33,333 bases of DNA from Oscillospiraceae bacterium. GTDB lineage: Bacteria > Bacillota > Clostridia > Oscillospirales > Oscillospiraceae. This document shows positions 607 to 13,118 of this stretch, piece by piece. The stretch spans positions 1 through 33,333 of the forward strand of contig JAFSBW010000025.1 in the NCBI GenBank assembly GCA_017437095.1, read 5' to 3'. The notes under the pieces were generated by a model. It was not told the origin of the DNA and searched no databases. It saw nothing but the letters and a program-made list of their open reading frames with translations. Numbering within the stretch: position 1 is the stretch's first letter; each line of letters starts with the position of its first letter. Position numbers and translations under genes: made by a program.

Positions 607-649
607 AAAAGAAACACCGTTTGTCTACCAGACAAACGGTGTTTCTTTT
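607..649 (+). terminator. strong intrinsic terminator after the tRNA-like 3' fragment
   Basis: A perfect 19-bp stem (607-625 with 631-649, loop TACCA) with A/T flanks. It begins right after the duplicated tRNA 3' end. The left boundary of the repeat array at 650 abuts its U-tract. Confidence 0.85.
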
Positions 650-818
650 CAACGAAATAAATCCCTTGCGGGATTTGTGAAATAACGCTCCGCATTATGA
701 AATAGCTGCCGCTATGAAATACGCTGCGGCGTATTAGGGATTTATTTCACATTCGGTGGAACACCGAATACTTCACAATGACCGCGGGTCATTATTTCAC
801 ATCCGGAGGATATTTCAC
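650..818 (+). repeat. GTGAAAT hairpin array, full copy 1
   Basis: It begins CAACGAAATAAATCCC-TTGC-GGGATTTGTGAAAT. Three short palindromes follow, separated by (G/A)TGAAAT (about 683-732), then AGGGATTTATTTCAC (736-750). Three more palindromes follow (751-769, 777-793, 801-811), separated by ATTTCAC or ACTTCAC. The GAAATAAATCCC near the start and GGGATTTATTTC in the middle form a long-range inverted repeat. The fixed end (about 36 bp) is the exact reverse complement of that of the copy at 12901-13080, whereas the hairpins differ. From 819 to 959 I see no gene. Confidence 0.85.
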
Positions 819-959
819 TTTTACGATTCAATGGGCGTAAAGAATGCATATATTCATTCCGTCTGACAAGCACATCTCCAACAGAACAGATAGCTCCGTT
901 CCCTGCAAGAGGTGCAGTGGCTGGCCTCTTATTATAAAGACTGGCCCTAGTTTTGATAC

Positions 960-993
960 AAATGCACCCCCTTTAGGTCAAGGGGGTGCATTT
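960..993 (-). terminator. hairpin terminator downstream of the 1007-1321 gene
   Basis: AAATGCACCCCCTT (960-973) pairs perfectly with 980-993 around a 6-nt loop. It lies just beyond the stop codon of the leftward gene. The U-tract is weak in both directions. Confidence 0.6.
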
Positions 994-1006
994 TCAATGT
1001 TATCAG

Positions 1007-1321
1007 CTAATATTTGCCCCAATCACGGAGCAACTCCCGGAAATATGACCGTTTATATGCTCCGCTTATCAATTCGATGTTTAAGAAAGAACAAAAACAG
1101 TTATTTTCCTTGCACCAATCGGCAACTGCATTATCAGTCAAAAAATCGGGTGGGGACATAAGGCATACAACAACACCGTTCTTGCTTCCGTAGTTTGAAA
1201 TATATCCAAACGCCTCAATTCCATTAGAAAGAGAGAACGGACTCTCAAACTGAAAACCAAATTCTTCTGCCGCTAACGCAAAATTATGCCTTGCAATTTT
1301 GAGTTTGTCGTCATGGATCAT
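1007..1321 (-). CDS. small hypothetical protein, 104 aa
   Basis: I do not recognise the family. The product is a soluble, acidic, aromatic-rich protein without signal peptide or membrane segment. It contains an internal VVVCLMSPPDF stretch and ends in a basic/aromatic tail (LLRDWGKY). An ATG at 1321 is preceded by AAGGCGG at good spacing. Further upstream TTGCGG and TATAAT (1343-1348) are 16 bp apart on the minus strand, and a hairpin follows the stop, so the gene has its own transcription unit. Base composition is clearly AT-richer than the housekeeping genes of the window, which together with the flanking repeat arrays suggests an acquired accessory gene. Size and isolation would fit an immunity or phage-derived protein, but nothing in the sequence proves that. 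Confidence 0.65.
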   Translation of the reverse strand: MIHDDKLKIARHNFALAAEEFGFQFESPFSLSNGIEAFGYISNYGSKNGVVVCLMSPPDFLTDNAVADWCKENNCFCSFLNIELISGAYKRSYFRELLRDWGKY

Positions 1322-1392
1322 ACAATCACCGCCTTTTCCTTATTATACCATAAAAGGAAAAAACCGCAACTTATATTAAAGGCGGGGTTACA

Positions 1393-1454
1393 AATGAAAT
1401 AAATCCACTCACGCCCGAAGCGTATTTCACAAATCCCGCAAAGGATTTATTTTG
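1393..1454 (-). repeat. GTGAAAT hairpin element, minimal copy
   Basis: Read on the minus strand it is AAAATAAATCCTTTGCGGGATTTGTGAAAT-like at its start, then one palindrome (ACGC..CGGGCGT), then GGATTTATTTCATTT. It therefore has the fixed end, one hairpin and the closing arm of the large arrays, with small mismatches. The rest of the 331-bp gap 1322-1652 shows no gene and no clear promoter other than that of the 1007-1321 gene. Confidence 0.7.
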
Positions 1455-1652
1455 CCTAAAAGCCACAACCCTTTTGGGTGATCGGATGAAGGATTCAAAT
1501 TCGGTTATCTCTGTCCATTCGCCGCCAGAACACCGCTTTTGGTATTATTAAGTACCATATGGCATCATCGGCATAAGGGGAAATCCATGAGTTCCTCATC
1601 CGCTCTTGCTACCCCAAACAGCAGGTGCAGAGACATTCGCGAAAAAACGCGA

Positions 1653-2531
1653 TCATTGCTTTTCATTAAAATGGAACAGCCATGTCCGGAACAGTGCCAC
1701 CGCAACCAGAGCGGCCAGGCTAAGCCCCATCAGCCAGCGTTCCAGAGGACTGGATACATTTCTGCCCATTAACACGATAAATATCACTGCGACTATAGGG
1801 ATTATCCACCACCCGAGATTCAGCAGCTTCATTAATTTCTTTCGATTTTCCAGCACATCCGGTTCAAAATCCTCCGGATACTTTACCTTGCACCGGATGG
1901 TGGCCACGGGGATTCCGCGCACAGCGTTATATATCCGCTCTGCCGTGTACTCGATTCCATCGATGGTAAATTCCGGGTACATACTCTCTTTTGTGATTAC
2001 CAGATTCAGACTATTCTTTTCTGCATAGGCAAACAGCGCATCGGTGAATTCCCTTGCATTCGTTACTGCATTATCCGCAATGAATGTAAACAGCTTTTTC
2101 TCTTCTGCGAGAACCACCTTGCGGTAATCCTCAACCCATTTTTGGAACATGCTCTGTGCATTTTCGGGAGATTCCATGCGGCTGATCATCTCGTCCACAT
2201 TCACAGCTTCCATAGTTTGGAATGTGCTCCATTCCTCGCAAAACCGGATGGCGGCAATGAGCTGTTCCTGCTGTGCTTTCAGCCTTTGAATTTGTTCCTT
2301 CGCTGCCGTTGCCGGGCTTATGGAGCCATCCAGAACCTGTTTGATCTGATCCAGCGGCATATCCAGCATACGCATGGCCCGTATCTTCTTCAAAGTATCA
2401 ATATGCTCCTGCCGGTATTCCCGGTAATCGTTCTCCGGATTTCTGTCTGGATTCAGCAAACCCTCCCGCTCATAAAACCTAATATTCTGCCGGGATACAC
2501 CCGACAACTCCTCTGCGGCCTTGATATTCAT
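1653..2531 (-). CDS. MerR-family regulator with C-terminal membrane anchor, 292 aa
   Basis: Residues 1-70 are a MerR winged helix-turn-helix (VSRQNIRFYEREGLL, then the DYREY wing and MRMLDMPLDQIK). A coiled-coil stretch rich in Q/E/K follows at about 78-100. The middle (about 110-230) matches no effector domain I know. The C-terminus carries two hydrophobic segments (about 240-256 and 267-283), so the protein should sit in the membrane with its DNA-binding domain inside. I chose the ATG at 2531 because AAAGGAGG lies 7 bp upstream; an earlier in-frame start would lie over this site. The promoter has the 19-bp spacer typical of MerR-controlled promoters, implying autoregulation. No partner gene is adjacent, so the signal is unknown. 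Confidence 0.85.
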   Translation of the reverse strand: MNIKAAEELSGVSRQNIRFYEREGLLNPDRNPENDYREYRQEHIDTLKKIRAMRMLDMPLDQIKQVLDGSISPATAAKEQIQRLKAQQEQLIAAIRFCEEWSTFQTMEAVNVDEMISRMESPENAQSMFQKWVEDYRKVVLAEEKKLFTFIADNAVTNAREFTDALFAYAEKNSLNLVITKESMYPEFTIDGIEYTAERIYNAVRGIPVATIRCKVKYPEDFEPDVLENRKKLMKLLNLGWWIIPIVAVIFIVLMGRNVSSPLERWLMGLSLAALVAVALFRTWLFHFNEKQ

Positions 2532-2554
2532 ATGTCCGCCTCCTTTCTGCACTT

Positions 2555-2585
2555 AGTATAAAGGTTAGAGTAGGTATAATGTCAA
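2555..2585 (-). promoter_or_regulatory. MerR-type autoregulated promoter (19-bp spacer)
   Basis: Minus strand: consensus -35 TTGACA (2580-2585) and -10 TATACT (2555-2560) separated by 19 bp rather than 17. MerR proteins activate such over-long spacers by twisting the DNA (established for the family). The -10 is 24 bp from the MerR start codon. Confidence 0.75.
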
Positions 2586-2659
2586 GCACTATTTTATGAA
2601 AATAAAAAAAGAGGCATTCGATTGAATCAAGATGCCGGTTCCGACGAACCTTTCTTCAT

Positions 2660-2791
2660 CCCAAAGTGGTTTCCGTCCACAGCCACAAGGGCTGCGTCCC
2701 GAAACCAATGGATTCTCCCACGGCCTAAACCCCTCGCCAGCTCTCAATTTTTGCACCAGTGTGCGCACTGGTGCCGCCCTTTCGAATCCCT
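2660..2791 (+). repeat. CCCACGGCCTAA element, copy 1
   Basis: No gene is supported. The unit starts with a stem GGTTTC (2668-2673)/GAAACC (2701-2706), continues with CCAATGGATT..CCCACGGCCTAA (2705-2728), then a hairpin CACCAGTG/CACTGGTG near 2754-2773, and ends GCCGCCCTTTCG. The order and the CCAATGGA..CCCACGGCCTAA and GCCG(C/G)CCTTTCG blocks recur at 12714-12830. Open frames on both strands here end in the terminator and look accidental. Confidence 0.65.
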
Positions 2792-2802
2792 TATCCGCTG
2801 CA

Positions 2803-2840
2803 AAAAAATCCCCAACCGCGTAAGCGGTCGGGGATTTTTT
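2803..2840. terminator. bidirectional intrinsic terminator
   Basis: A 17-bp stem with one mismatch (2803-2819 with 2824-2840, loop GTAA), flanked by A6 and T6. It ends the leftward GNAT/four-helix unit and lies at the edge of the preceding repeat. Confidence 0.8.
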
Positions 2841-2989
2841 GGCAGTATTGAACTTAATGCATATTATAAATGGCTTTTTTAGAAAATCAAAAAGAGAAAA
2901 TCTTAGAGCTGCAACGTTTTTTAGCATTCCAGTTCAGCAACACCGGATCAATTTTGCGTTTGAACTAAATAGATATTGCTTATTCTGTT

Positions 2990-3436
2990 TCAAAATATCT
3001 TCTTTAGATTCAATTGTTCTTTACCACCGGAATAACCACAGCGGCGATAGAATTCGTGGGCATCCGTTCTGGATGCACCGGATACCAACCGGATGCCAGC
3101 TGCGCCAGTTTTGCAGGCCCAATGCTCGACTTGTTGAAGCAATGCTCTTCCAATACCCTGCTGTTTGTGTTCGCTAGATACTGCTATGCCCATAATGTTT
3201 TTCATATGTGGTGCATACAAAACGTCATAATCATTTGCATGTACATAACCAACGACAGAACCATCATAAACCGCCACAAAGATTTTATCAGCGCTGCTGC
3301 GGAGAAGCTTCGTTATGTTTTGTGCAGTATCATCCAAAGGATATTGATATCCCATCTCACTACAATTGAGCCGCCAAATTGCAGCCGCATCAGATGCGAC
3401 GGCTTCACGAATAGAAAAATCATTATTGAGTTTCAT
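2990..3436 (-). CDS. GNAT-family N-acetyltransferase, 148 aa
   Basis: A single-domain GNAT protein: N-terminal IREAVASDAAAIWRLN, a central beta-strand VAVYDGSVVGYV, then the acetyl-CoA pyrophosphate-binding loop SSEHKQQGIGRALL (Q92-x-x-G94-x-G96) and the late YRRCGYS segment typical of the fold. The family transfers acetyl from acetyl-CoA to an amine. The substrate cannot be read from the sequence; homologues include aminoglycoside acetyltransferases, but nothing here is diagnostic. The start overlaps the stop of the upstream four-helix-bundle gene by 4 bp, so the two are translationally coupled. The gene is AT-richer than its surroundings. Confidence 0.88.
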   Translation of the reverse strand: MKLNNDFSIREAVASDAAAIWRLNCSEMGYQYPLDDTAQNITKLLRSSADKIFVAVYDGSVVGYVHANDYDVLYAPHMKNIMGIAVSSEHKQQGIGRALLQQVEHWACKTGAAGIRLVSGASRTDAHEFYRRCGYSGGKEQLNLKKIF

Positions 3437-3783
3437 TTTTGTGATTTCTCCTTCGCTGTATTGATTGAGGAAATCAAAATACGCTTTATTTCAATGCATC
3501 GGTTGAGAATTGTATCATCATTATAATAGCCACTTTCAATCAATAATTCCAGCCAGTATTCGCTTTCTGAACATTCTTTCAGTGCAATCTGCAACTTGGC
3601 AATAAAGTCCGCCCTTCCGTGGGCATAAAAGGCTTCGCGAATATTTGCCCCTATGCTTGTTCCCGACCGAATTAACTGGTTGGTTAGTACACTTTCTCTT
3701 TTGCTTTGTTTAATCTCGTTACATACCCGAATAATATCAAGTGCAAATGCTTTTGACTTTACAAGCAACGGACTGTCTGCCAT
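3433..3783 (-). CDS. four-helix-bundle protein (23S rRNA IVS-type family), 116 aa
   Basis: The sequence matches the four-helix-bundle family named for proteins encoded in 23S rRNA intervening sequences. Hallmarks are LLVKSKAFALDIIRVCNE, the LTNQLIRSGTSIGANIREA motif, KLQIALKECSESEYWLELL and a final helix. The family is small, basic and helical; a role in nucleic-acid binding is suspected but not established. I prefer the ATG at 3783, 5 bp after GAGGTGG, over the GTG nine bases upstream, which would lie inside that site. It is the first gene of a two-gene unit with the GNAT enzyme. Such genes are often stand-alone and mobile in Clostridia and Bacteroidetes, which fits the low GC here. Confidence 0.85.
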   Translation of the reverse strand: MADSPLLVKSKAFALDIIRVCNEIKQSKRESVLTNQLIRSGTSIGANIREAFYAHGRADFIAKLQIALKECSESEYWLELLIESGYYNDDTILNRCIEIKRILISSINTAKEKSQK

Positions 3784-3812
3784 AACTTCCACCTCACAAA
3801 AAGGATATTTTT

Positions 3813-3841
3813 ATTATAGCGGAAGCAACAAAGATTTGCAA
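3813..3841 (-). promoter_or_regulatory. sigma-A promoter of the four-helix/GNAT unit
   Basis: Minus strand: -35 TTGCAA (3836-3841), 17-bp spacer, -10 TATAAT (3813-3818), 30 bp ahead of the start codon. Confidence 0.75.
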
Positions 3842-3853
3842 TATAATTAGAAT

Positions 3854-3972
3854 TAGCGTTTCGCCAAAGCGAAACGCCACCGCACTTATTCACTATTCAC
3901 TATTACTTATTACTTGCCAAAAATCGACTCCCGGATTTTAGTGAAGAGTGAAGAGTGAAGAGGTAATAAGTA
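3854..3972. repeat. palindrome plus inverted pair of heptad repeats
   Basis: A hairpin GCGTTTCG/CGAAACGC (about 3855-3877) is followed by heptads TATTCAC, TATTCAC, TATTACT, TATTACT (about 3886-3914). After a spacer come AGTGAAG three times and AGGTAAT/AAGTAAA-type units (3939-3972). The two arms are roughly reverse complements, so they could fold on each other. No coding signal is present. Confidence 0.75.
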
Positions 3973-4008
3973 AAAATCGACATCCTTCTTTCGAAGAATG
4001 TCGATTTT
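3972..4008 (-). terminator. intrinsic terminator of tRNA-Gln(CTG)
   Basis: The stem AAAAATCGACAT(C/T)CTT pairs across a short loop with its complement and ends in a U-tract on the minus strand, immediately after the tRNA CCA. Confidence 0.85.
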
Positions 4009-4082
4009 TGGCAGAGGATGAGGGATTCGAACCCCCGCGAACGGAGTCAGAGTCCGGTGTGCTACCGTTACACTAATCCTCT
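4009..4082 (-). tRNA. tRNA-Gln (anticodon CTG)
   Basis: A 74-nt minus-strand cloverleaf: acceptor AGAGGAT/ATCCTCT, anticodon loop CTCTGAC (anticodon CTG), T arm GGGGG-TTCGAAT-CCCTC, discriminator G and encoded CCA. The anticodon stem has one C-U mismatch at its base. This is the second glutamine isoacceptor in the window. Confidence 0.93.
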
Positions 4083-4115
4083 GTATCGTTGCGACTCCGT
4101 TGTGGCACGGGTATT

Positions 4116-4143
4116 ATTATACCCAAAATGGGGAAAAAGTCAA
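4116..4143 (-). promoter_or_regulatory. sigma-A promoter of tRNA-Gln(CTG)
   Basis: Minus strand: -35 TTGACT (4138-4143), 16-bp spacer, -10 TATAAT (4116-4121). Confidence 0.8.
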
Positions 4144-4204
4144 GAACTTTTTTCCATATTTCTCGATTTCTTCCGCAAAAATAGGATGCCCTGAAAAGTT
4201 TTCT

Positions 4205-4756
4205 TTATTCCTCTTCCCAGGGGAAGGGTTTGCCTTTGAGAACGCTTTGCTTCATATAGCGGAAAGTAGCTTCTTCGCCCTGCTCTTTGAGCATGGTAAG
4301 CAGATACCGCAGCTCCCGCTTGGTCTGCTCATGCATCAGCGATTTCTCCCGGCTCTTGTCAAAATATTCCAGGGCAGAGCCGTCGGTATAGCGCTCGCCC
4401 TGGTAGACGATGCAGGCGGCCCGGCGGTCCATGACCATTTCTACCAGGTATTTTCTGGGCATGGGCACAGCTTCGTACTGCCCGGAGGCCCGGCTCATAT
4501 CCGTCCAGTATTCGTAGTGGTGGCGGTTGCGGCCCTTATGGTGCATCCAGGCCTGGCTGTAGCCGTTTTCCTCACGCTCGGCGGCGTTGGGGGAGCGGGT
4601 ACCCTGGTAGTATTTTACGCCGATGCAAAACTCTGTAGGGCTGTATTTGGAAAGATCGTGGGTCAGACCCTGCCACACAAGGCCCACCCGCAGGCAGCCC
4701 AGCATGACCAGGTTGCGGTGGCGGGTTATGGTTTTAAAATGCTGCCAAGCTTTCAT
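4205..4756 (-). CDS. DUF5662 family protein, 183 aa
   Basis: The sequence resembles the DUF5662 family of Firmicutes and their phages: KAWQHFKTITRHRNLV at the N-terminus, the conserved QGLTHDLSKYSPTEF (about 30-44), KYYQGTRSPNAAEREENG, and HHKGRNRHHYEYW near residue 75. The invariant histidines and aspartates in THDLSKY and HHKGRNRHH would suit metal binding, perhaps an HD-like fold, but no activity is established. No signal peptide or membrane helix is seen. The ATG at 4756 follows GGGAGGG by 7 bp; the open frame continues upstream but without a ribosome-binding site. It is transcribed divergently from fumarase, with which it shares a -35 element. Confidence 0.85.
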   Translation of the reverse strand: MKAWQHFKTITRHRNLVMLGCLRVGLVWQGLTHDLSKYSPTEFCIGVKYYQGTRSPNAAEREENGYSQAWMHHKGRNRHHYEYWTDMSRASGQYEAVPMPRKYLVEMVMDRRAACIVYQGERYTDGSALEYFDKSREKSLMHEQTKRELRYLLTMLKEQGEEATFRYMKQSVLKGKPFPWEEE

Positions 4757-4786
4757 TGTCAGCCCTCCCGGAAAAAATCTTACTCT

Positions 4787-4838
4787 ATTATAAAACAATT
4801 CGCGCCCAATTGCAACCGCCGGATTTTTGTGGTATACT
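4787..4838. promoter_or_regulatory. divergent promoter pair sharing one palindromic -35 box
   Basis: TTGCAA at 4810-4815 is its own reverse complement. On the plus strand it is followed after exactly 17 bp by -10 TATACT (4833-4838), leading to the fumarase genes. On the minus strand it is followed after exactly 17 bp by -10 TATAAT (4787-4792), leading to the DUF5662 gene. RNA polymerase could occupy only one direction at a time, so the two units should compete. Confidence 0.8.
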
Positions 4839-4863
4839 GGCAAAAACAGGGGAGGGAAGACCT

Positions 4864-5703
4864 ATGAAAACCGTAACCGCCCAGCAAATTACCGATACCG
4901 TGGCCCGGCTGTGCATCCGGGCCAACCGGGAGCTGCCCCGGGATGTGGCCCAGGCTTTGGCCGAAGCCCGCAGCCGGGAGCCCTGGCCCTTGGCCCAAAA
5001 CACCCTGAGCCTGCTCCAGGAGAATCTTAGCGTAGCATCCCAAAGCTGCCTGCCCATCTGCCAGGATACGGGCATGGCCTGCGTGTTTGTGGAGCTGGGT
5101 ACGGATGTGCATATCCAGGGAGATTTTGAGCAGGCCATCCATGAGGGCGTGCGCCAGGGCTATACCCAGGGGTATCTGCGCAAAAGCATGGTGGCCGACC
5201 CCTTGCGCCGGGGCAACACCGGGGATAACACCCCCGCCGCCATTACCGTGCATCTGACCGCCGGGGAAACCTGCCGCATTACCGTTGCCCCCAAGGGCTT
5301 TGGCAGCGAGAATATGAGCCGCCTGGCCATGCTCAAGCCTGCCGATGGGGTAGAGGGCTTTAAAAAATTCGTTGTGGATACGGTGCGCGCCGCCGGGCCA
5401 AACCCCTGCCCGCCGGTGATTTTGGGCATTGGCGTAGGCGGCAGCTTCGACAAGGTGGCCTGCCTTGCCAAAAAGGCGCTGCTGCGGCCGCTGGATACGC
5501 CCAACCCCGACCCCTATTATGCCGCCTTGGAGCGGGAGCTTTTGGCCGAGGTCAACGCCCTGGGCATCGGCCCTCAGGGCTTCGGCGGCAAGACCACCTG
5601 CCTGGGCCTGGCCATTGAGAGCATGCCCACCCATGTGGCGGGGCTTCCTGTGGCGGTAAATGTATCCTGCCATGTTACCCGCAGAGCTACGGAGGAGATC
5701 TGA
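4864..5703 (+). CDS. class I fumarate hydratase, alpha subunit (FumA N-terminal half), 279 aa
   Basis: Iron-sulfur hydro-lyase subunit that, with the next gene, interconverts fumarate and malate in the cytosol. The closely related tartrate dehydratase cannot be fully excluded. Family hallmarks are CQDTG (C66-G70), LRRGNTGDNTPA (about 114-125), APKGFGSEN (about 142-150), GIGVGGSFDKVACLAKKALLR (about 188-208) and GFGGKTTCLGL (about 239-249). C66, C246 and C182 or C200 are candidates for the oxygen-sensitive [4Fe-4S] ligands. The ATG at 4864 follows GGGAGGG. The length is normal for the split form found in anaerobes. The beta subunit begins one base after this stop codon. An incomplete TCA branch toward fumarate or malate is the likely context. 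Confidence 0.93.
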   Translation: MKTVTAQQITDTVARLCIRANRELPRDVAQALAEARSREPWPLAQNTLSLLQENLSVASQSCLPICQDTGMACVFVELGTDVHIQGDFEQAIHEGVRQGYTQGYLRKSMVADPLRRGNTGDNTPAAITVHLTAGETCRITVAPKGFGSENMSRLAMLKPADGVEGFKKFVVDTVRAAGPNPCPPVILGIGVGGSFDKVACLAKKALLRPLDTPNPDPYYAALERELLAEVNALGIGPQGFGGKTTCLGLAIESMPTHVAGLPVAVNVSCHVTRRATEEI

Positions 5704-5704
5704 C

Positions 5705-6271
5705 ATGGAGCATAAAATTACCGTACCCTGCGCCGCTGCCGACCTTGCAGCCCTGCGCGCCGGGGATACCGTTTTGCTTTCCGGCACGGTGTATACCGCC
5801 CGGGATCAGGCCCATATCCGCATGACTCAGGCCCTGGACGCCGGGGAAAGCCTGCCCTTTCCCATTGAGGGCAGCGCAATTTACTATGTAGGCCCTACCC
5901 CGGAGCAGCCGGGGCAGATCATCGGCGCGGCCGGGCCTACCACCTCTTGCCGGATGGACGGCTTTTCCCCCCGGCTTTTGCGCCTGGGCAACCGGGTAAT
6001 GATCGGCAAGGGAGAGCGCAGCGAAGAAGTGAAGCAAGCCGTGGCGGAAACCGGCAGCGTATACCTGGCAGCCCTGGGGGGCGCCGGGGCGCTGATGGCC
6101 CGGTGCATTCAAAGCGTGGAGACCGTAGCCTGGGAGGATCTGGGCTGTGAAGCCGTGCGCAAGCTCCGGGTGGAGAATATGCCCCTTACGGTTATTTTGG
6201 ATGCCCACGGCGGCGATCTGTACCGCCAAGGCCCGGCAAATTACCTGAGGGAAAATGAACATAAGATATAA
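5705..6271 (+). CDS. class I fumarate hydratase, beta subunit (FumA C-terminal half), 188 aa
   Basis: Partner of the preceding subunit. Diagnostic stretches are LAALRAGDTVLLSGTVYTARDQAH near the start, IYYVGPTPEQPGQ, GPTTSCRMDGFSPRLL (where most homologues have TTSGRMD), MIGKGERS, GGAGALMARCI and the closing VENMPLTVILDAHG. Start and upstream stop are separated by one base (TGA-C-ATG) with a GGAGGAG site inside the alpha gene, giving coupled translation. An oddity lies at the 3' end: the last codons Lys-Ile and the TAA stop fall within a heptad array (AAGATAT, AAGATAT, AACATAG) that runs on into the intergenic space. The end of the protein may therefore have been rewritten by repeat insertion. 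Confidence 0.92.
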   Translation: MEHKITVPCAAADLAALRAGDTVLLSGTVYTARDQAHIRMTQALDAGESLPFPIEGSAIYYVGPTPEQPGQIIGAAGPTTSCRMDGFSPRLLRLGNRVMIGKGERSEEVKQAVAETGSVYLAALGGAGALMARCIQSVETVAWEDLGCEAVRKLRVENMPLTVILDAHGGDLYRQGPANYLRENEHKI

Positions 6272-6366
6272 GATATAACATAGCGGACGGATATGGAGAG
6301 TGGAGATTTAAGAGTGAAGAGTGAAGATTTCCCTATCTTAACTCTTAACTCTTCAATCTTCAATCT
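6263..6366. repeat. heptad repeats, overlapping the fumarase beta stop codon
   Basis: Three blocks of strict 7-bp units: AAGATAT, AAGATAT, AACATAG (6263-6283); GAGTGAA twice, then GATTTCC (about 6312-6332); and CTTAACT twice, CTTCAAT twice (about 6338-6365). The second and third blocks are roughly inverted with respect to each other. The first block encodes the last two codons and the stop of the fumarase beta subunit. Confidence 0.8.
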
Positions 6367-6394
6367 GCGGTGCCTTTTTGTTTGCTGCAAAATG

Positions 6395-6428
6395 AAAATA
6401 AGCTTGCCCTGAGGGGCAAGCTTATTTT
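6395..6428. terminator. bidirectional intrinsic terminator
   Basis: A perfect 15-bp stem (6395-6409 with 6414-6428) with A4 and T6 flanks lies between the convergent fumarase and ECF genes, touching the stop codon of the latter. Confidence 0.88.
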
Positions 6429-7001: not shown

Positions 7002-7142
7002 AATGCTGCCTCCCTGGGGCAAAGGGGAAAACCCTGCCCGCAAAATCAAGATGGGCTCATTATAGCACCGTCTGGCAATAAATACAGTACCAAAATACGC
7101 CTTAAAAATAGGGCCAGTTTGGGTTTTGACCCCCAAATTTCC

Positions 7143-8258
7143 TTAACCCTTTCCCCTGGGGATCCGGGCCAGGGCGAAGCACACCGCGCTGTATACGGCC
7201 AGCCAGCCCAGCCGGGAGAAATCGGTAATGGCCCAAAGATAGTGGCTCAGGGGCATCAGGTAGCTTACCGGCTTCAAAGGATTCAGGGTAAGGAACACCG
7301 GCGAGCATACCAGCGCGGCCACCGTAACCACCGGCAGCGCCCCGGCCAGGGCGCTCAGGGGCTTTAGCAGCCGGGAAAGGGCCATAGAGAAGCAAACGCA
7401 GGCCAGGGCCAGCCCCAGGGCGCACAAAAGCTCCTTGTACCAGGCCACGCCCATGCCCGTTACCGCCAGGGCGGCCACAGCCGCCAGGCTCAGCGCCAGG
7501 CAGGTCCAAAGCCCGCCTACCAGCTCCGGCAGCCAGGCCAGGCGGTAGGGGAGGTAGCGGAAAGTGCCAGATTGCTCATCCCGCTTGTGGTACATGCTGC
7601 TGCCCAGGCCGCCCAGCAGCACGATGGCCGCCAGCAGGCCTCTAACCGGGGAAGCCAGGTGGCTTTCCGGCTGGGAGTAGCCGTCTACCTGGGTGTAGGC
7701 AAAAAGCTCTCCGGGGATCTGGGTGTTTTCCCAGAAGGCCAGCTTCTCCTGCTCAGAAAGCTGGGCCATGGCCTGGCTTTCTTCCGGCAGCCGGGCCAGG
7801 TACAGCTGGCGCACCATAGCCTCGTATACGCTCATATTCAGCCGCTCCCGGGCCAGGGTCAGCAGGGGCATTTCCTCCCGCTGGTAAACCGTCACAAAGG
7901 CATCCTTGGCCGAGCGGGTGCGCAGGAATTTCTTTACATTTTCCTCCATCCCGGCGTGGAACACCCAGGCGCAGTCGGCCTTGCCGTAGCGCACCTTGTC
8001 GGCGGCCTCCGCCCGGCTGTCGCACAGCACAAAGCGGATCAGCTCCGAGCTTTCCGGCAGGGCTTCCATAGTTGCTTTGGCCAGAGGGTCGGCTTGGTCA
8101 TCCCTGGCCAGAGCCACGGTGACCACACCCGCATCCCCCTTTGTCCCCGCGGCGTAGCCCAGGGTGAGCAGAGGAATCAGCGCCAGCAGCACCAGAAAAC
8201 CGGGCCGGCGCAGCAGCCGCTTGCCCAGCAGCCATACAAAAGCAAAAGGCTTACTCAT
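7143..8258 (-). CDS. ABC-2 type transporter permease, 371 aa
   Basis: Third gene of a three-gene ABC export system. An N-terminal transmembrane segment (about 18-36, PGFLVLLALIPLLTLGYAAG) is followed by a large extracytoplasmic domain to about residue 205. Four to five clustered membrane helices then run to the C-terminus, the layout of ABC-2 family half-permeases such as PF12698 proteins. The ATG at 8258 follows GGAGGTGG and overlaps the stop of the upstream permease (ATGA), indicating coupled translation. The open frame continues further upstream, but only as a shadow of that neighbour. The family exports drugs, peptides or lipids; the cargo is unknown here. Confidence 0.85.
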   Translation of the reverse strand: MSKPFAFVWLLGKRLLRRPGFLVLLALIPLLTLGYAAGTKGDAGVVTVALARDDQADPLAKATMEALPESSELIRFVLCDSRAEAADKVRYGKADCAWVFHAGMEENVKKFLRTRSAKDAFVTVYQREEMPLLTLARERLNMSVYEAMVRQLYLARLPEESQAMAQLSEQEKLAFWENTQIPGELFAYTQVDGYSQPESHLASPVRGLLAAIVLLGGLGSSMYHKRDEQSGTFRYLPYRLAWLPELVGGLWTCLALSLAAVAALAVTGMGVAWYKELLCALGLALACVCFSMALSRLLKPLSALAGALPVVTVAALVCSPVFLTLNPLKPVSYLMPLSHYLWAITDFSRLGWLAVYSAVCFALARIPRGKG

Positions 8259-9448
8259 GCGCCCACCTCCCCAGCGCGGATGCGCCGCACCCGGCCCACC
8301 AGAGCCAGGGCCAGAAAGGCAGCGCTGTAGCCCAGCAAGCCCCAAAGGGCGCTGCCGGAGCGGCCGGAAGCAAAATCGGTAAGGTATTGCCGGGCCATGC
8401 CCCCGGGCAGCACAGCCGCCAGGCGCTGGATGCTCTCCGGGAAAAACCAAACCGGGTACATGCACCCGCAAACCAGGGCCATGGCCAGCGCCGTAAAGAA
8501 ATACAGCAGCACGCCCCCCAGCAGCTGGCGCATCCAGCTATAGCAAAGAAAGGCCAGGGCAGCCACCATTGCGGCAATGGGCAGCATAGGCAGCATGGAT
8601 AGCTTGATCTGGGGAATGGCCAGGCTTACTCCCAGCAGCAGCACGGCAAGGCACACTACCTCTCCGGCGAAAAGCACCAGGTAGTCTATCAGGCTCTGGC
8701 CGATGTCGCTGCGGCCACGGCTGCGCAGCAGGATATTCACCCCCGCGTTTTGCAGCACCGACATAGGGGCAAAGCTCAGCGCCGCCATCAGCGCCAGAGT
8801 CACCGCCAGGCCGCAGGCCATATATTCGGCAAAGCCCGGGGCATCCCCCACGCCCAAAAGCTCTACCTGGCCGGTGCGGTTGCGCAAAAATATGTACTGG
8901 GCCAGCTCCTCGCTGAATTCATTGAGCACCCGGTTGGCCTCCTCATGGCCGATATAAGGCTCCAGGGCCGCGTAAGCGCCAAAGCTGGCTTTTTGGGATT
9001 GCAGCAGCAGCCGGGAGATAATGGCGGTGACCTCCTGCTGAAACAGGGTGTTCATGCCGCCGGCGTTGGCTTTGGTAATATAGCGGATGGTAAGGATCTC
9101 CCCCCGGTTGGCAGCGCTGACAAACCCCGGCGGGATCACGGCGTAGGCATTGATCTGGCCGCTTTCCAGGGCGGCTTCGGCCTCTTCCTCGGAAAATTCC
9201 TGCATATCTACGGCAAAGCCCAGATCGTCCAGGCTTTCAATGGCGCTCAGGCCCAGGCGGAGCATGCCGCTGTCCGGGATGCCTACGATGCCGATGGGAA
9301 ACCGCGTGCGGCTATCCTCCTGGCTTTGCCCGGCCAGCATAGCCATAGCGCCCAGCACCAGGCATACCGTAAGCAGCGCCATGGCAGGCACAGCCCAAAC
9401 CAGCGCCTTGCCCAGGCGCTTGAGTTGGATCAAGGTATATTTTCCCAT
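8255..9448 (-). CDS. ABC-2 type transporter permease, 397 aa
   Basis: Second gene of the exporter and a divergent relative of the next permease. It has an N-terminal helix at about 14-40 (ALVWAVPAMALLTVCLVLGAM), an extracytoplasmic domain of about 175 residues beginning SQEDSRTRFPIGIVG, then about five to six helices from residue 220 onward (MACGLAVTLALMAALSF and others). Together the two permeases should form the heterodimeric membrane channel served by the ATPase upstream. The ATG at 9448 sits one base after the ATPase stop codon, behind ACGGAGAG. Two permeases of this type with one ATPase resemble self-protection or antimicrobial peptide exporters, but no peptide gene or regulator is adjacent. 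Confidence 0.85.
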   Translation of the reverse strand: MGKYTLIQLKRLGKALVWAVPAMALLTVCLVLGAMAMLAGQSQEDSRTRFPIGIVGIPDSGMLRLGLSAIESLDDLGFAVDMQEFSEEEAEAALESGQINAYAVIPPGFVSAANRGEILTIRYITKANAGGMNTLFQQEVTAIISRLLLQSQKASFGAYAALEPYIGHEEANRVLNEFSEELAQYIFLRNRTGQVELLGVGDAPGFAEYMACGLAVTLALMAALSFAPMSVLQNAGVNILLRSRGRSDIGQSLIDYLVLFAGEVVCLAVLLLGVSLAIPQIKLSMLPMLPIAAMVAALAFLCYSWMRQLLGGVLLYFFTALAMALVCGCMYPVWFFPESIQRLAAVLPGGMARQYLTDFASGRSGSALWGLLGYSAAFLALALVGRVRRIRAGEVGA

Positions 9449-9449
9449 A

Positions 9450-10118
9450 TTACAGGCTCTCCGTCAGCCGCTGCAGGTCGCCATCGTATTGGTAGGGCGT
9501 TAAGCGGCCGTTTTTCAAGATGTACCAGCTGTCGCAAAGCTTCAGCTCCGATTCTTCGTGGGTAGTAAGCAGCACGATGCCGCCGCTTTGCCGGTAGGCG
9601 CGCAGATAGGCGGCGATATCCTGCTTGCATTGCAGATCCAGCGCGGCGGTAGGCTCGTCCAGCAGCAGCACCGGGGGGCGCTTTGCCATGGCGCAGCCGA
9701 TGGAAAGCCGCTTTTTCATGCCGCCGGAAAGCTTGCTTACCCGCTTGCCGATAAACTCCCCAATGCCCAGCATGGCAAGGATGCCCCCCTGCAGCTCCTG
9801 CTCCAGCTCCTTGCGGCTGTACCACAGCGCCAGATTGTCCCGGGCGGTAAGCTCCGGGATCAGGGGCGTGCCCTGGGGCACATAGCCCACCAGGCGGCTG
9901 CGCAGGCTTTCGTCGGAAAACAGCTGCTTGCCGTCTATGGCGAAGCTGCCGCCGTCCGGCTTCTGCACCCCCGCCAATATGGAAAGCAGGGTAGATTTAC
10001 CGCTGCCGTTGGCGCCTAAAATGGCGATGCAGCTGCCGCTTTGGGCGCTAAGGCAAATATCACACAGCACCTGCTGGCGCCGGTAACTCTTTTTCAGACC
10101 TTCGATGGTAAGCTCCAT
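9450..10118 (-). CDS. ABC transporter ATP-binding protein, 222 aa
   Basis: Complete ABC ATPase: Walker A GANGSGKST (35-43), Q-loop YVPQGTPLIPELT (about 79-91), signature LSGGMKKR (130-137), Walker B VLLLDEP (150-156), D-loop ALDL, and switch histidine H187 in LLTTHEES. It powers the two downstream permeases, to which it is coupled by a one-base gap. The GGMKKR signature and short length are typical of exporters of the CcmA/drug-efflux type. The ATG at 10118 follows TGGAGGG; the upstream extension has no such site and crosses the promoter. A consensus promoter at 10149-10177 drives the whole operon. Confidence 0.93.
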   Translation of the reverse strand: MELTIEGLKKSYRRQQVLCDICLSAQSGSCIAILGANGSGKSTLLSILAGVQKPDGGSFAIDGKQLFSDESLRSRLVGYVPQGTPLIPELTARDNLALWYSRKELEQELQGGILAMLGIGEFIGKRVSKLSGGMKKRLSIGCAMAKRPPVLLLDEPTAALDLQCKQDIAAYLRAYRQSGGIVLLTTHEESELKLCDSWYILKNGRLTPYQYDGDLQRLTESL

Positions 10119-10148
10119 ACGATCCCTCCAGGGTTTTTTATTGGTTAA

Positions 10149-10177
10149 ATTATACCACCGCCGCAGCCAAAAGGCAA
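10149..10177 (-). promoter_or_regulatory. sigma-A promoter of the ABC exporter operon
   Basis: Minus strand: -35 TTGCCT (10172-10177), 17-bp spacer, -10 TATAAT (10149-10154), about 31 bp before the ATPase start. Confidence 0.8.
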
Positions 10178-10209
10178 TCCCCCCAAAAAGCGACGGCTTT
10201 CCCATATGC

Positions 10210-10240
10210 AAAAAGCGCCTCCAAAAATCGGAGGCGCTTT
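10210..10240 (-). terminator. intrinsic terminator of the MORN-repeat gene
   Basis: AAAGCGCCTCC (10212-10222) pairs with GGAGGCGCTTT (10230-10240) and, on the minus strand, is followed by a U-tract. It starts 3 bp after the stop codon. Confidence 0.85.
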
Positions 10241-10242
10241 GG

Positions 10243-11400
10243 CTATTCAGCATTTTCCCGGGGCGGCTCCGGGCCGATAAATTCATCCTTTTCAAACCAG
10301 CCGGCCTGAACAGTTCCGTCCGCCTGGGTCAGCACGCCCTGGCCGTGGCGGCAGCCCCGGTGGTCAAGCTCGCCTATATAGATGCTGCCGTCGCTGTAGC
10401 GTTTTTCTCCCTGGCCCACGATTTCTCCCATTTCGTAGGTGCAGACCATACGGGTGCCGTCGGCATAGGTATAAACGCAGCTGCCATGGGCTTTGTCTCT
10501 TTCAAAATATCCGTCCAAAACATCGCCGCACGCAAAGGTGTATACGCATTTGCCGTGGCGTTGATCGTTTTCATAATATCCGGCATAGACATTGCCGTTT
10601 GCATAGCGGTTAACGCCATAGCCGTGGCGTTTTCCCTCCACAAATTCTCCCTCAAAATCATGCTTGGCGCTGGTATATTTGCCGTGCCCGTGCCGCTTAC
10701 CGAATTGCCACTGGCCCTCGTAGCAAACGCCGTTGGGATAGACCATAATACCGTAGCCGTGCCTTTCGTCGTTTCGGTACTCTCCCTCGTAGTGGCAGCC
10801 GTCGTCCCAATCCGTGATGCCCTTTCCGTGCCAAAGGCCGTTGAGAAAATCTCCTTCATAGCGATAGCGAACATATTGCCGCACGCCGTGGCCGGTAAAC
10901 ATATAGGCGCTGCCGGGGGCGGGGACATTTTTGTGAAACAGCAGCTTTCCGTTGTACCATAGGCCCCTATGGCGCTTTCCCGCGGCGTCGGTATAGCTGC
11001 CCCAGCCGGTAAAGCGGCCGTTGTAACGCAGGCCGGTATAGCTTTCGCCGCTGGGCCAGGTAGAAACGCCCCAGCCGTGGGCCATATCCCGGCTCCATTT
11101 GCCTTCATAAGCGGAATGATCGTGGAATACCTCACGGCCACGGCCCCAGCGAAGGCCATGTTTGTGCTGCCCTTCGTAGCGCTCACCCCTGGGCCCGGTA
11201 TATACCCCATTGCCCCAGCGCAGGCCCTTTCGGAATTCCCCTTCGTAAACCTCACCGCCGGGATAGGTCGCGGTTATTTTCCCCTGGGGGATGCCGTCTT
11301 TCCACTGGCCCTCAAAAACCGTGCCGTCGGGATGCTCCCAACGGCCCCAGCCGTTGAGCAGCCCCTGCTCGCCCCGCACTTGCTTAGGAAGATAACCCAT
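10243..11400 (-). CDS. MORN-repeat protein, 385 aa
   Basis: Almost the whole protein is a tandem of MORN units, about 23 residues each and roughly 13-14 in number. The consensus is YEGxWxxGxxHGxGxxxYxxG (examples: YEGEFRKGLRWGNGVY, YEGEYRNDERHGYGIMVYPNG, FEGEFVEGKRHGYG, YIGELDHRGCRHGQG). MORN repeats form elongated beta-hairpin solenoids. In eukaryotes they contact membranes or partner proteins, and in bacteria their role is mostly unknown. No signal peptide, transmembrane helix or catalytic domain is seen, so it should be a cytosolic scaffold. The ATG at 11400 follows AAAGGAGG; the 21 in-frame codons upstream overlap the promoter. It is a single-gene unit with its own promoter and terminator, directly downstream of a structured RNA. 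Confidence 0.92.
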   Translation of the reverse strand: MGYLPKQVRGEQGLLNGWGRWEHPDGTVFEGQWKDGIPQGKITATYPGGEVYEGEFRKGLRWGNGVYTGPRGERYEGQHKHGLRWGRGREVFHDHSAYEGKWSRDMAHGWGVSTWPSGESYTGLRYNGRFTGWGSYTDAAGKRHRGLWYNGKLLFHKNVPAPGSAYMFTGHGVRQYVRYRYEGDFLNGLWHGKGITDWDDGCHYEGEYRNDERHGYGIMVYPNGVCYEGQWQFGKRHGHGKYTSAKHDFEGEFVEGKRHGYGVNRYANGNVYAGYYENDQRHGKCVYTFACGDVLDGYFERDKAHGSCVYTYADGTRMVCTYEMGEIVGQGEKRYSDGSIYIGELDHRGCRHGQGVLTQADGTVQAGWFEKDEFIGPEPPRENAE

Positions 11401-11434
11401 AAAAACGCCTCCTTTGCCTGTAGCTGTTAAAATA

Positions 11435-11463
11435 ATTGTAACACGCCCACCTTGCGCCGTCAA
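11435..11463 (-). promoter_or_regulatory. sigma-A promoter of the MORN-repeat gene
   Basis: Minus strand: -35 TTGACG (11458-11463), 17-bp spacer, -10 TACAAT (11435-11440), 35 bp ahead of the start codon. Confidence 0.75.
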
Positions 11464-11489
11464 GGCAACGCTGAGAGATTTTATTGGGC

Positions 11490-11700
11490 TTCAGCAGTGC
11501 GTCCAGATAAAGAATCATCCCCCGCGCCCAATCCCTTCCCCCGGGGTGGTGCTACGCGCAGCGAATCAAAAACCCCATGATTTCTAGAAAGTGTCAGCCC
11601 ATAGGGCTGACGGATGAGGAACGCGGGCAGAAATCTGACTTTTCCCATCTGTCCAGGCTTCCTCCCGAGCCTAACTAGATAGAGAAGACACAGGACGGTT
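11490..11700 (-). ncRNA. structured non-coding RNA, possibly raiA RNA
   Basis: The 260-bp open frame here shows no protein character. The minus strand instead has nested pairings: CAGAT (11647-11651) with ATCTG (11504-11508); GATTTCT (11629-11635) with AGAAATC (11579-11585); a strong hairpin GTCAGCCC/GGGCTGAC (11593-11611); a small hairpin AGGCT/AGCCT (11655-11672); and a possible pseudoknot CCCGCG (11622-11627) with CGCGGG (11521-11526). Length (about 200 nt), GC-rich stems and purine-rich single strands (GGGAAAAGTC) fit a conserved Firmicutes RNA. From memory it most resembles the raiA RNA class, though I cannot run a covariance search. No clear promoter is visible upstream. Confidence 0.55.
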
Positions 11701-11796
11701 ATTTTGTTCCCTTTTGGTTTTGTGTTTTTGGGGAAGACCAGGGGCAATAGAATTGGCCCTTTGTCACTACGGACGGATTCCCTGTATCGTTCAAAA

Positions 11797-12009
11797 TTAC
11801 TTGTTAATTTCCGGTTTGTCGGTACGACACAAAATATAGTCGATGCTCACATTGTAGAACTCCGCCAATCGCAAAAGCGTCTCTGTAGGAGGAATCCTTT
11901 CTCCATTCTCAAACTTGGAGAGAAGCGCCTGCTCAATCCCCGTGTGCATTTGCAGAGAAATCTGTGTATACCCTCTGCTCTTTCGCAATGTTCTTAATCT
12001 GTTTTGCAT
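11797..12009 (-). CDS. XRE-family (HTH_3) transcriptional repressor, 70 aa
   Basis: A minimal Cro/CI-type regulator consisting only of the helix-turn-helix domain: LRTLRKSRGYTQISLQMHTGIEQALLSKFENGERIPPTETLLRLAEFYNVSIDYILCRT. The recognition helix is around IEQALLSKFENG. The ATG at 12009 follows GGTGAT. It is divergent from the 12106-12630 gene, and the 96-bp gap between them holds two near-perfect palindromes containing TGACA..TGTCA. The protein should therefore repress its neighbour and probably itself (inference). Both genes are AT-rich compared with the window and form a self-contained cassette. Confidence 0.88.
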   Translation of the reverse strand: MQNRLRTLRKSRGYTQISLQMHTGIEQALLSKFENGERIPPTETLLRLAEFYNVSIDYILCRTDKPEINK

Positions 12010-12019
12010 AATATCACCA

Positions 12020-12034
12020 ATGACATTATGTCAT
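12020..12034. promoter_or_regulatory. operator O1 of the XRE cassette
   Basis: ATGACATTATGTCAT is a palindrome broken only at its centre, located 11 bp ahead of the XRE start codon. It shares the TGACA/TGTCA half-sites with O2. Confidence 0.7.
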
Positions 12035-12042
12035 ATTTTATC

Positions 12043-12071
12043 TTGACTATTATGACAGGTTGTCATATAAT
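12043..12071 (+). promoter_or_regulatory. promoter of the zinc-ribbon gene with operator O2 in the spacer
   Basis: -35 TTGACT (12043-12048), 17-bp spacer, -10 TATAAT (12066-12071). The palindrome TATGACA-GGT-TGTCATA (12051-12067) fills the spacer and overlaps the -10, so a bound repressor would block RNA polymerase. Confidence 0.82.
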
Positions 12072-12105
12072 TAGATTGTCCAAAAAATAAAAGGAGAGGA
12101 ACAAC

Positions 12106-12630
12106 ATGAATTTTAACTTACGCGCTATGTTCAAAAAACCCGCTTCCGTAAAGGAAGCAAAGGAAAAGAAGGATACTGCTAAACTGGCAGCCTTAGGCTG
12201 CTTAGGGTCTGCTATTGTTTTAGCAGTTCTCGGCGGCTTGACAAACATTGGCTTTATAGAATCTCTTGGCATGATTCTAATTGTTTTGGCGGTTGTCTGT
12301 TTCTACTTTTGGTATTGTGCCAAGAGCGAAGTAGCTCGATTCCAAACAATTTACTGCGAATGTGGAGAGAAGTATACCTACCCCGATCATGTTACTTATA
12401 AAGAGATAGGAGAGCAAATCTCCTCCGGAAAAGATCCTAACAACGATAATATTATACGACATACCAGCACAAAAGTTACGTTGTTCTGCACATGCCGAAA
12501 GTGCGGCAAAGAACGGACCGTCGACACAACATTTGTTACACAGAAAGATACATTTAATAAACGCGGCGTACTCCTGACTACAAAGACTTATCCGATTGAA
12601 GATCTACTTAAAAATTTCTTTAAGCAATAA
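12106..12630 (+). CDS. membrane protein with cytosolic zinc-ribbon-like domain, 174 aa
   Basis: I do not recognise the family. A basic N-terminus (KKPASVKEAKEKKDTAK) is followed by two hydrophobic helices (about 25-45 and 53-72), then a soluble C-terminal domain with cysteines C84 and C86 (YCECGEKY) and C128, C130 and C133 (FCTCRKCGK), which could bind one zinc ion. The short loop between helices and the positive N-terminus predict both ends in the cytosol. AAAGGAGAGG precedes the ATG at 12106. The gene is controlled by an operator-embedded promoter and is divergent from an XRE repressor. GC content and codon use differ from the housekeeping genes, so recent acquisition is likely. Stress-induced or phage/plasmid-derived function is possible but unproven. 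Confidence 0.75.
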   Translation: MNFNLRAMFKKPASVKEAKEKKDTAKLAALGCLGSAIVLAVLGGLTNIGFIESLGMILIVLAVVCFYFWYCAKSEVARFQTIYCECGEKYTYPDHVTYKEIGEQISSGKDPNNDNIIRHTSTKVTLFCTCRKCGKERTVDTTFVTQKDTFNKRGVLLTTKTYPIEDLLKNFFKQ

Positions 12631-12662
12631 GCCATATCTTCGCACACAAAAAGCAGGAGACA

Positions 12663-12690
12663 GGAGACAAGGGGACGTTCTACTGTCTCC
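12663..12690. repeat. REP-like palindrome (GGAGACA..TGTCTCC)
   Basis: GGAGACA (12663-12669) pairs with TGTCTCC (12684-12690) around AGGGGACGTTCTAC. A direct copy AGGAGACA precedes it at 12655. The GGGGAC(G)TTCT..TGTCTCC pattern is seen in many genomes as REP elements mobilised by RAYT transposases (from memory). Confidence 0.55.
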
Positions 12691-12713
12691 AAGAAAGGCT
12701 GCTACAACCAATA

Positions 12714-12830
12714 ATTGGCAACCGCTAACAATCTTACAGATTGCCATCGGTTGCCAATGGACTTTCCCACGGCCTAAGAAACATGCCCCCGGCATGTTTC
12801 TTGCCTGCCCGCTGGGCAGGCCGGCCTTTC
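12714..12830. repeat. CCCACGGCCTAA element, copy 2
   Basis: An 11-bp stem ATTGGCAACCG/CGGTTGCCAAT (12714-12724, 12748-12758) runs into CCAATGGACTTTCCCACGGCCTAA, then hairpins GAAACATGCC/GGCATGTTTC and GCCTGCCC/GGGCAGGC, ending GCCGGCCTTTCG. Layout and shared blocks match the copy at 2660-2791. No gene is supported between 12631 and 13118. Confidence 0.65.
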
Positions 12831-12848
12831 GTTAAAATGTATAAATTA

Positions 12849-12891
12849 AAAGGCCCTGTGGTAGCTGATTGTCAGCGACCACAGAGCCTTT
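12849..12891. terminator. terminator-like hairpin
   Basis: AAAGGCCCTGTGGT pairs with ACCACAGAGCCTTT (one mismatch), with an inner GCTGA/TCAGC stem. It probably ends transcription of the 12106-12630 gene, which has no closer terminator. Confidence 0.6.
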
Positions 12892-12900
12892 GTTTATTCA

Positions 12901-13080
12901 GTGAAATCGTTCGCTTGCGCTCACGGTGAAATAATTTACTTTGCAAATTGTGAAATTTGATGCTTGCGCATCAAGTGAAATGAAATAAATCCCTATGTGC
13001 CGCAGCACATTTCACATTGCGAAGCAATATTTCACTGCCGAAGGCAATTTCACAAATCCCGCAAGGGATTTATTTCGTTG
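12901..13080 (-). repeat. GTGAAAT hairpin array, full copy 2
   Basis: Read on the minus strand: CAACGAAATAAATCCC-TTGC-GGGATTTGTGAAAT, then hairpins TGCCTTCGGCA, ATTGCTTCGCAAT and TGTGCTGCGGCACA separated by GTGAAAT, then AGGGATTTATTTC. Hairpins TTGATGCGCAAGCATCAA, AATTTGCAAAGTAAATT and CGTGAGCGCAAGCGAACG follow, separated by ATTTCAC. This is the same 3+3 layout as copy 1 with different hairpins. The fixed end abuts the U-tract of the tRNA terminator at 13081-13117. Confidence 0.88.
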
Positions 13081-13117
13081 AAAAAGGCTCTGATTGTATC
13101 ACAATCAGAGCCTTTTT
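13081..13117 (-). terminator. intrinsic terminator of the tRNA-Trp unit
   Basis: A perfect 17-bp stem (13081-13097 with 13101-13117, loop ATC) with A5/T5 flanks, directly after the tRNA-Trp CCA on the minus strand. Confidence 0.9.
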
Positions 13118-13118
13118 C

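Follow-up and report, generated by a model that had tools for sequence, protein, structure and literature searches.

The 33,333-nt stretch analysed here (the window), contig C19 of a draft Oscillospiraceae genome (1.73 Mb, 77% complete), carries two hairpin arrays, copy 1 at 650–818 on the plus strand and copy 2 at 12901–13080 on the minus strand, in which short palindromes alternate with a 7-nt separator, GTGAAAT, behind a shared fixed end. Comparison of their sequences across genomes moderately favors a reading in which these arrays are DNA elements, not small RNAs, and represent stand-alone, non-autonomous copies of the 5′ module of a mobile unit linked to the protein IVP (PF05635), which would read the separators and mark the element for copying or insertion. 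The array and the IVP gene lie side by side in a constant order, tend to be present in the same genomes, change together and make up one block found across families. The initial annotation knew of no formal name for the element, half of which is the Rfam family Gut-1 (RF01706). That name is known; the link of Gut-1 arrays to IVP is new, and no link of Gut-1 to IVP, or of IVP to heptamer arrays generally, was found in the open-access literature, searched largely by listings.

The first lead was a PF05635 gene lying in the gap between arrays of genome G004. A search of 26 genomes, hand-chosen as Gut-1-rich or Gut-1-free, gave 54 IVP matches and placed IVP genes beside arrays repeatedly. Of these matches, 49 loci were analysed and, six repeating genes of other loci, gave 43 distinct genes, 42 of them with enough upstream sequence; hairpin arrays were present upstream of 20 of the 42, tandem heptamers upstream of 15, and either kind at 32 (three count as both). 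The respective values for far control stretches were 0, 1 and 1 of 78, and none of the 42 Markov versions scored. A second set, collected from GTDB with an alignment of seven array-linked IVPs as query, samples that clade; it comprises the best 80 of more than 586 loci and overlaps the first set in at least two cases (L099 = L244, L148 = L293). Hairpin arrays were seen upstream of IVP at 57 of 79 of these loci and downstream, within 450 nt, at 0 of 80, with 1/139 distant stretches and 1/79 Markov versions as controls. Among 60 genomes, IVP was found in 29 of the 30 with Gut-1 and in 8 of the 30 others (Fisher p=1.5e-8).

A closer look at the boundaries of this association showed that many unrelated pairs of loci have a single block of ~600–650 bp in common, extending from the fixed end to the IVP stop codon. 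The block starts at the terminator or at the fixed end, ~235–300 nt before the IVP gene, ends within ~10 nt of the stop and, in its ~650-bp form, holds the IVP open reading frame (ORF) only. Loci L097 and L143, from different families of the order, are 89.1% identical over 622 nt, and L223 and L227 are 86.6% identical over 657 nt, while at true orthologous loci the similarity continues beyond the block. Array and IVP gene very probably form one transferable unit. To its left, 49 of 83 hairpin-array units have a same-strand tRNA gene, of many kinds, compared with 8 of 40 units of the heptamer type and 7 of 38 loci with neither; none of 25 Y1 transposase loci has one upstream. The 83 units include one identical pair; when three units that also score as heptamers (L146, L156, L157) are left out, the count is 47 of 80. 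One of seven IMG/VR loci (L297) carries a GTGAAAT array with IVP; this locus aside, a phage or plasmid origin is not supported, since copy 2 gave no blastn match in phage and plasmid collections.

Copy 2 is placed behind tRNA-Trp (13119–13194, minus strand), its upstream neighbor, with a perfect 18-bp terminator-like stem between them (13081–13118, minus strand). In genome G008 (locus L196), which has no Gut-1 matches, both flanks of copy 2 are present with ~45 nt between them and no array. The same site is occupied in G211, where array and flanks are 84% identical over 540 nt and the hairpins are altered, and in G039, from another family, an array with a different separator and an IVP gene stand beside the tRNA-Trp terminator. 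No array was seen beside tRNA-Trp, in the stretch read, in 20 further genomes of the genus or at loci L189, L192, L193, L195 and L196. Only G008 has both flanks, so it is the sole clean empty site, and within the limits set by its divergence it supports insertion of copy 2. The link to mobility raised at the outset finds support in this pair of empty and occupied sites and in the shared block. The stems behind tRNA-Trp in the genus (L189, L192, L193, L195–L216) appear by eye long, near-perfect and terminator-like, with a sequence that varies between species, as if they also drifted with compensation.

Read from the fixed end, an element consists of CAAC, GAAAT, a hairpin 0 and three repeats of separator plus hairpin, followed by the centre AGGGATTTATTTC, three repeats of reverse separator plus hairpin and a terminal ATTTCAC. 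Both copies were described before as sharing an end and as having three hairpins on each side of a centre, and this holds in full: both are present at their places, the fixed end CAACGAAATAAATCCCTTGCGGGATTTGTGAAAT is identical in the two, and the 3+3 hairpins surround AGGGATTTATTTC in each. The fixed end of copy 1 (650–683, plus strand) contains CAAC, GAAAT, the AAATCCC/GGGATTT hairpin and the first separator, and is abutted by a perfect 21-bp terminator-like stem with a T-run (606–649, plus strand); its centre (736–748, plus strand) is complementary to the fixed end, as judged by sequence reading and folding, and its right-end ATTTCAC occupies 812–818. Copy 2 is inverted with respect to copy 1, with its fixed end at 13080. 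Both are intergenic, beside terminator-like stems, and no IVP gene adjoins them. The one-hairpin minimal form proposed at 1393–1454 is real and lies on the minus strand, where fixed end, one separator, one hairpin and centre can be read directly. The separators, taken to be fixed, are so overall, except that in copy 1 two on the left read ATGAAAT and one on the right ACTTCAC; other copies in the genome use, by reading, another separator throughout (GTGAAGT, GCGATAT or GTGATGT).

Several of these parts are complementary to each other. Hairpin 0 is AAATCCC/GGGATTT in the main type of element and its first arm can pair with its local partner and also with the centre; likewise, the reverse separators are complementary to the forward ones. 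A script that takes any 6-nt complementary triple of the hairpin 0/centre kind detected one in 44 of 82 IVP-linked arrays, compared with 3 of 82 Markov versions and 5 of 75 distant stretches; a few of the triples fall elsewhere in the stretch. DNA folding gave z = -6.6 for copy 1 and -5.3 for copy 2, with 0 of 200 shuffles as good in each case. Copy 2 folds into a tree of stacked junctions; in copy 1 the centre pairs with the fixed end instead, so the tree is not the sole fold. Genome-wide, 34 GTGAAAT..GTGAAAT pairs were counted (17 per strand) versus 0 for the pattern read backwards.

Covariation was evaluated in 24 elements from 12 genomes, drawn from 35 full elements of which 11 were set aside for shifted register. 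Of 480 stem cells, 441 were Watson-Crick paired (shuffle mean 233, maximum 259); when each genome contributed a single element, the figure was 221 of 240 (mean 121, maximum 145). The stems therefore drift with compensation, as the initial annotation had claimed, and selection on secondary structure is supported; together with the fold z-scores and the separator pairs, this excludes a chance clustering of palindromes. The fixed module count fared less evenly. The script that found the 35 full elements required 3+3, and to conclude from it that all full elements are 3+3 would be circular. When this requirement was lifted, 47 GTGAAAT clusters were found in the examined loci, of which two are truncated at an edge. 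Among the remaining 45, 31 carry 4+3 separators or more, which makes three hairpins a side, and the others are one-sided, partial or split by the 55-nt gap rule. The 3+3 arrangement is a rule, not a law.

The separator tracks the IVP lineage. For 33 array-linked IVPs, with separator words assigned by eye, protein and separator distances are correlated (Mantel r=0.527), a value reached by 0 of 10000 permutations (maximum 0.282), and in 30 of 33 cases the separator of the nearest IVP relative is identical or differs in a single base (shuffle mean 8.7, maximum 20). Array and IVP are thus one system, because either the protein reads the word or both are always inherited as a unit. The same co-variation, together with the position of the array directly 5′ of the IVP promoter region, would also suit an operator or processing site through which the IVP gene is autoregulated, the dispersed copies being decoys or other targets. 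Such a role is rather unlikely: those copies, up to tens per genome, sit behind tRNA terminators and not before a shared gene set, and the block is common to different families.

At its other end the IVP gene often finishes with AAGGAGA..ATGA, which would provide a ribosome site together with a start codon. In 23 of 83 hairpin units an ATG lies inside the IVP stop, at offset -4, and in 15 of them it opens an ORF of at least 60 aa; ORFs of at least 60 aa starting within -14 to +20 of the stop were found in 28 of 83. Of 20 hand-picked downstream proteins, 14 match Pfam families, among them GNAT, cytidine deaminase, WapI-like immunity, ASCH, MutY-like and Mntp, and six match none. The same families recur after different IVP types, with WapI-like proteins at L137 (ATGATGT) and L223 (GTGAAAT) and cytidine deaminases at L078 (GTGAAAT), L287 (GCGATAT) and L289 (heptamers). 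These features would be expected of a cassette system whose head, array plus IVP, captures accessory genes via the ATGA end. However, most units have no such gene, an A before any TGA stop makes an ATG, and no array lies downstream of IVP in the 80 best GTDB loci, all of which renders a cassette system unlikely.

The Gut-1 model matches the window at 13004–13080 (minus strand), 650–725 (plus strand) and 12899–12986 (plus strand); the three matches score 76.3, 59.5 and 50.9 bits against a gathering score of 50. It runs from the fixed end to a point within the third hairpin, and in copy 2 the left and right halves are matched on different strands; the Rfam family thus covers about half of a larger inverted element. 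Weinberg et al. 2010 (PMC2864571) include Gut-1, found in environmental sequence, among noncoding RNAs and label it "human gut only". The genome of the window has 31 matches, and matches at E≤0.001 occur in 30 of 60 genomes, this one included (27 above the family cut-off; 14 of 24 genera). Within the genus, under stricter filters, Gut-1 is present in 17 of 37 genomes, with 0 to 30 matches each, and many copies in one species with none in its sisters is the pattern of mobile DNA. GTGAAAT arrays at IVP loci, recognized by separator and not by the Rfam model, were also present in metagenome-assembled genomes from goat, deer, sheep and buffalo gut, so the restriction to the human gut does not hold.

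Inspection of the array borders bears on transcription. The left end could be located in 29 of the 35 full GTGAAAT elements, some with IVP and some lacking it. Of these 29, 22 have a perfect stem of at least 8 bp whose end coincides with the fixed end, versus 10 of 942 control windows, and 15 have a tRNA no more than 250 bp away. Between array and IVP gene, a TATAAT facing the gene is present in 27 of 86 IVP units versus 3 of 155 controls. With a terminator-like stem on the left and a TATAAT on the right that faces the IVP gene, no transcript across such an array would be expected except by read-through. A transcribed small RNA with conserved hairpins, as Rfam has it, would account for the gathering-level matches, the stem covariation and the CUUCGG-type loops that are common, by reading, in the left half; but the two halves match the model on opposite strands, the model breaks off within hairpin 3, terminator-like stems abut the fixed end, the TATAAT of IVP units is on the far side of the array and points away from it, and the distribution in the genus is patchy, which makes this explanation quite improbable.

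A RAYT-like partner (Y1 transposase), suggested as a possibility in the initial annotation, did not hold up. Y1_Tnp was found in 17 of 30 Gut-1 genomes and 11 of 30 others (p=0.20), that is, with no association, and the sequences upstream of 25 Y1 loci, used as a gene control, contained one hairpin array and two heptamer arrays; the PF05635 gene is the partner found in its place. A passive repeat resembling repetitive extragenic palindromic (REP) sequences or miniature inverted-repeat transposable elements, moved by an ordinary transposase such as Y1/HUH with IVP as a hitch-hiker, would be short, palindromic, intergenic and multi-copy as the arrays are, and could draw on the Y1_Tnp matches in 17 of 30 Gut-1 genomes, but it is very improbable given the lack of association with Y1 (the sole transposase family examined), the single hairpin array at 25 Y1 loci and the strong association with IVP. 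On contig G000:C33 (L029, L312), a Y1_Tnp gene at 769–1125 lies ~600 bp from a GCGATAT-type array at 1716–1792.

In the preferred reading, the mobile unit consists of a heptamer/hairpin array followed by the gene for the four-helix-bundle IVP protein. An IVP oligomer would read the repeated 7-nt separators; the hairpins may act as spacers that form on a single strand and bring about a tree through pairing between forward and reverse separators. IVP would then mark the element for copying or insertion behind terminator hairpins, the nuclease, polymerase or reverse transcriptase possibly being supplied in trans. For the step in which IVP reads the separators and drives movement, we consider the balance to be even. 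Several points weigh against this scheme. We know of no nuclease activity of IVP, and the joint change of separator and IVP may reflect simple co-inheritance and not binding. Some shared blocks end before the IVP stop (down to -127). Eight of the 37 IVP genomes have no Gut-1 match, the Gut-1 genome G049 has no IVP match, and G032, counted among the 29, has only a weak one below the family cut-off; in the genome of the window, 31 Gut-1 matches stand against six IVP genes and most arrays are far from any IVP. Element ends and target duplication are unreadable at the empty site because G008 is diverged and 68% complete, and no gain of an array was seen between near-identical strains.

The window contains a complete unit of the related heptamer type between 4082 and 2990 on the minus strand. 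It is headed by tRNA-Gln (4009–4082), followed by a terminator, an inverted tandem heptamer array (3880–3975, lag-7 score 23/28), the IVP gene (3433–3792, 119 aa; PF05635, 23S_rRNA_IVP, Pfam E=7e-24) and a GNAT acetyltransferase gene (2990–3436; PF00583, E=2.1e-18) that starts in the IVP stop with an ATGA overlap (offset -4). Bacillota IVP genes outside the hairpin type have degenerate tandem heptamers beside the gene, usually inverted between the sides, in 18 of 26 loci upstream and 16 of 26 downstream, with 6/51 far stretches and 0/26 Markov versions as controls, and repeat lengths other than 7 were found at 0 to 4 of the 26 (those parsed of 29). A second repeated element was noticed by eye at 500–600 of the window and at loci L010, L199, L202, L205 and L216, beside tRNA genes; it comprises a partial tRNA copy, a TTTGCATTTTNGCC-type inverted sequence and an inverted CAACAGTCCACCGGACTGTTG-like stem, and looks like another tRNA-associated element.

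Heptamer-type units also occupy structured RNA genes. Rfam places four of five such loci in 23S rRNA genes (L117, L121, L128, and L343 from Azospirillum). At the fifth, L123, to which L125 is 95.7% identical, the IVP gene with its inverted heptamers lies inside a bacterial RNase P RNA gene, so structured RNA genes beyond 23S rRNA are also affected. Ten plasmid IVP genes were hand-picked from 37 records (Cyanobacteriota, Azospirillum, Gemmatirosa); eight have heptamers scoring at least 18/28 on one or both sides, and the remaining two show repeats of 8 nt. The flanking repeats have a period of 8 in L342 (Gemmatirosa; lag-8 scores 24 and 26 of 28) and L337 (18 and 20 of 28), and in L340 the two flanks are direct, not inverted. 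The IVP gene of L337 (Picosynechococcus plasmid) is placed between cas10/cmr2 and cmr3, and that of L340 (Pseudanabaena plasmid) between cas6 and cas4; since both sit among cas genes, reports of IVP linked to clustered regularly interspaced short palindromic repeats (CRISPR) may reflect unit insertion. Locus L165 (G047:C41) seemingly combines, by eye, tandem heptamers and a hairpin array at one IVP gene, a possible intermediate between the two types.

These observations suggest, tentatively and at somewhat less than even odds, that IVP is the defining part of a large class of mobile DNA, so far unrecognised, in which words of 7 nt (sometimes 8 nt), repeated in mostly inverted arrays, serve as the cis signals. 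Such a class would join 23S rRNA intervening sequences, RNase P RNA insertions, cyanobacterial heptamers, TAACTGA-type repeats and Gut-1 arrays, and every IVP clade would recognise a word of its own. In Oscillospirales, hairpins would have come to split the words, insertion would occur behind terminators and accessory genes could be coupled via the ATGA end.

With Gut-1 (RF01706) the arrays agree in both sequence and structure along their left half, counted from the CAAnGAAAU end onward, with matches above the gathering score; here, however, this is half of an inverted DNA element, present in many genomes of gut and rumen Clostridia and tied to IVP genes. REP sequences and bacterial interspersed mosaic elements (BIME) with their REP-associated tyrosine transposases (RAYT) are dispersed, palindromic, noncoding repeats with a low-copy protein gene beside the same repeat. 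The arrays have both features, but their protein is IVP, not a Y1 HUH transposase, and they have no Y1 association. Cyanobacterial short tandemly repeated repetitive (STRR) sequences are heptamer repeats, tandem 7-nt words that are intergenic and patchy across phyla. The same is described, in the portion of the source available, for TAACTGA repeats in Beggiatoaceae, Cyanobacteria and Bacteroidetes (PMC4679880), in which no IVP link appears; the arrays here, in contrast, flank IVP genes. The 23S rRNA intervening sequences with an S23/IVP ORF are similar in the PF05635 protein family, found in the array-IVP units and at 3433–3792 of the window, and in inverted repeats around the ORF; in Coxiella, tandem heptamers (GACAGAT) lie just 5′ of the S23 ORF, according to the accessible text of PMC4990558. 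They differ in that Gut-1-type units lie behind terminators, often of tRNA genes, and not in rRNA, that their heptamers are separated by hairpins, and that arrays also exist without an ORF. The Avd protein of diversity-generating retroelements is related to the PF05635 four-helix proteins (PMC10053308, as far as available), but none of five annotated avd genes has heptamer flanks of at least 18/28 (best 17). As to integron gene cassettes, which combine an attC-like site with an integrase, the shared ~650-bp block contains no ORF besides that of IVP. CRISPR arrays are not matched either, since here 7-nt repeats occur in both orientations and are separated by self-complementary hairpins.

To our knowledge, the four-helix IVP/S23 protein, long known from split 23S rRNA genes, has no assigned function, and Gut-1 is an orphan RNA family. 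Heptamer repeats are spread over phyla, and no mechanism of transfer is evident in the portion of PMC4679880 at hand. The array-IVP unit is a variant of elements of the intervening-sequence type and may hold the key to a wider class; the hairpin-array/IVP unit seems to move between gut bacteria. If one protein family and its 7-nt words tie together IVP function, the spread of heptamers and Gut-1, all three become testable and the Rfam entry of Gut-1 would be corrected. This may also explain why IVP genes have been recorded in cas loci (PMC3936711) and why the legend of a figure about CRISPR-linked genes names them (PMC10910872). The array-IVP unit would offer a way to find the role of a widespread and enigmatic four-helix protein.

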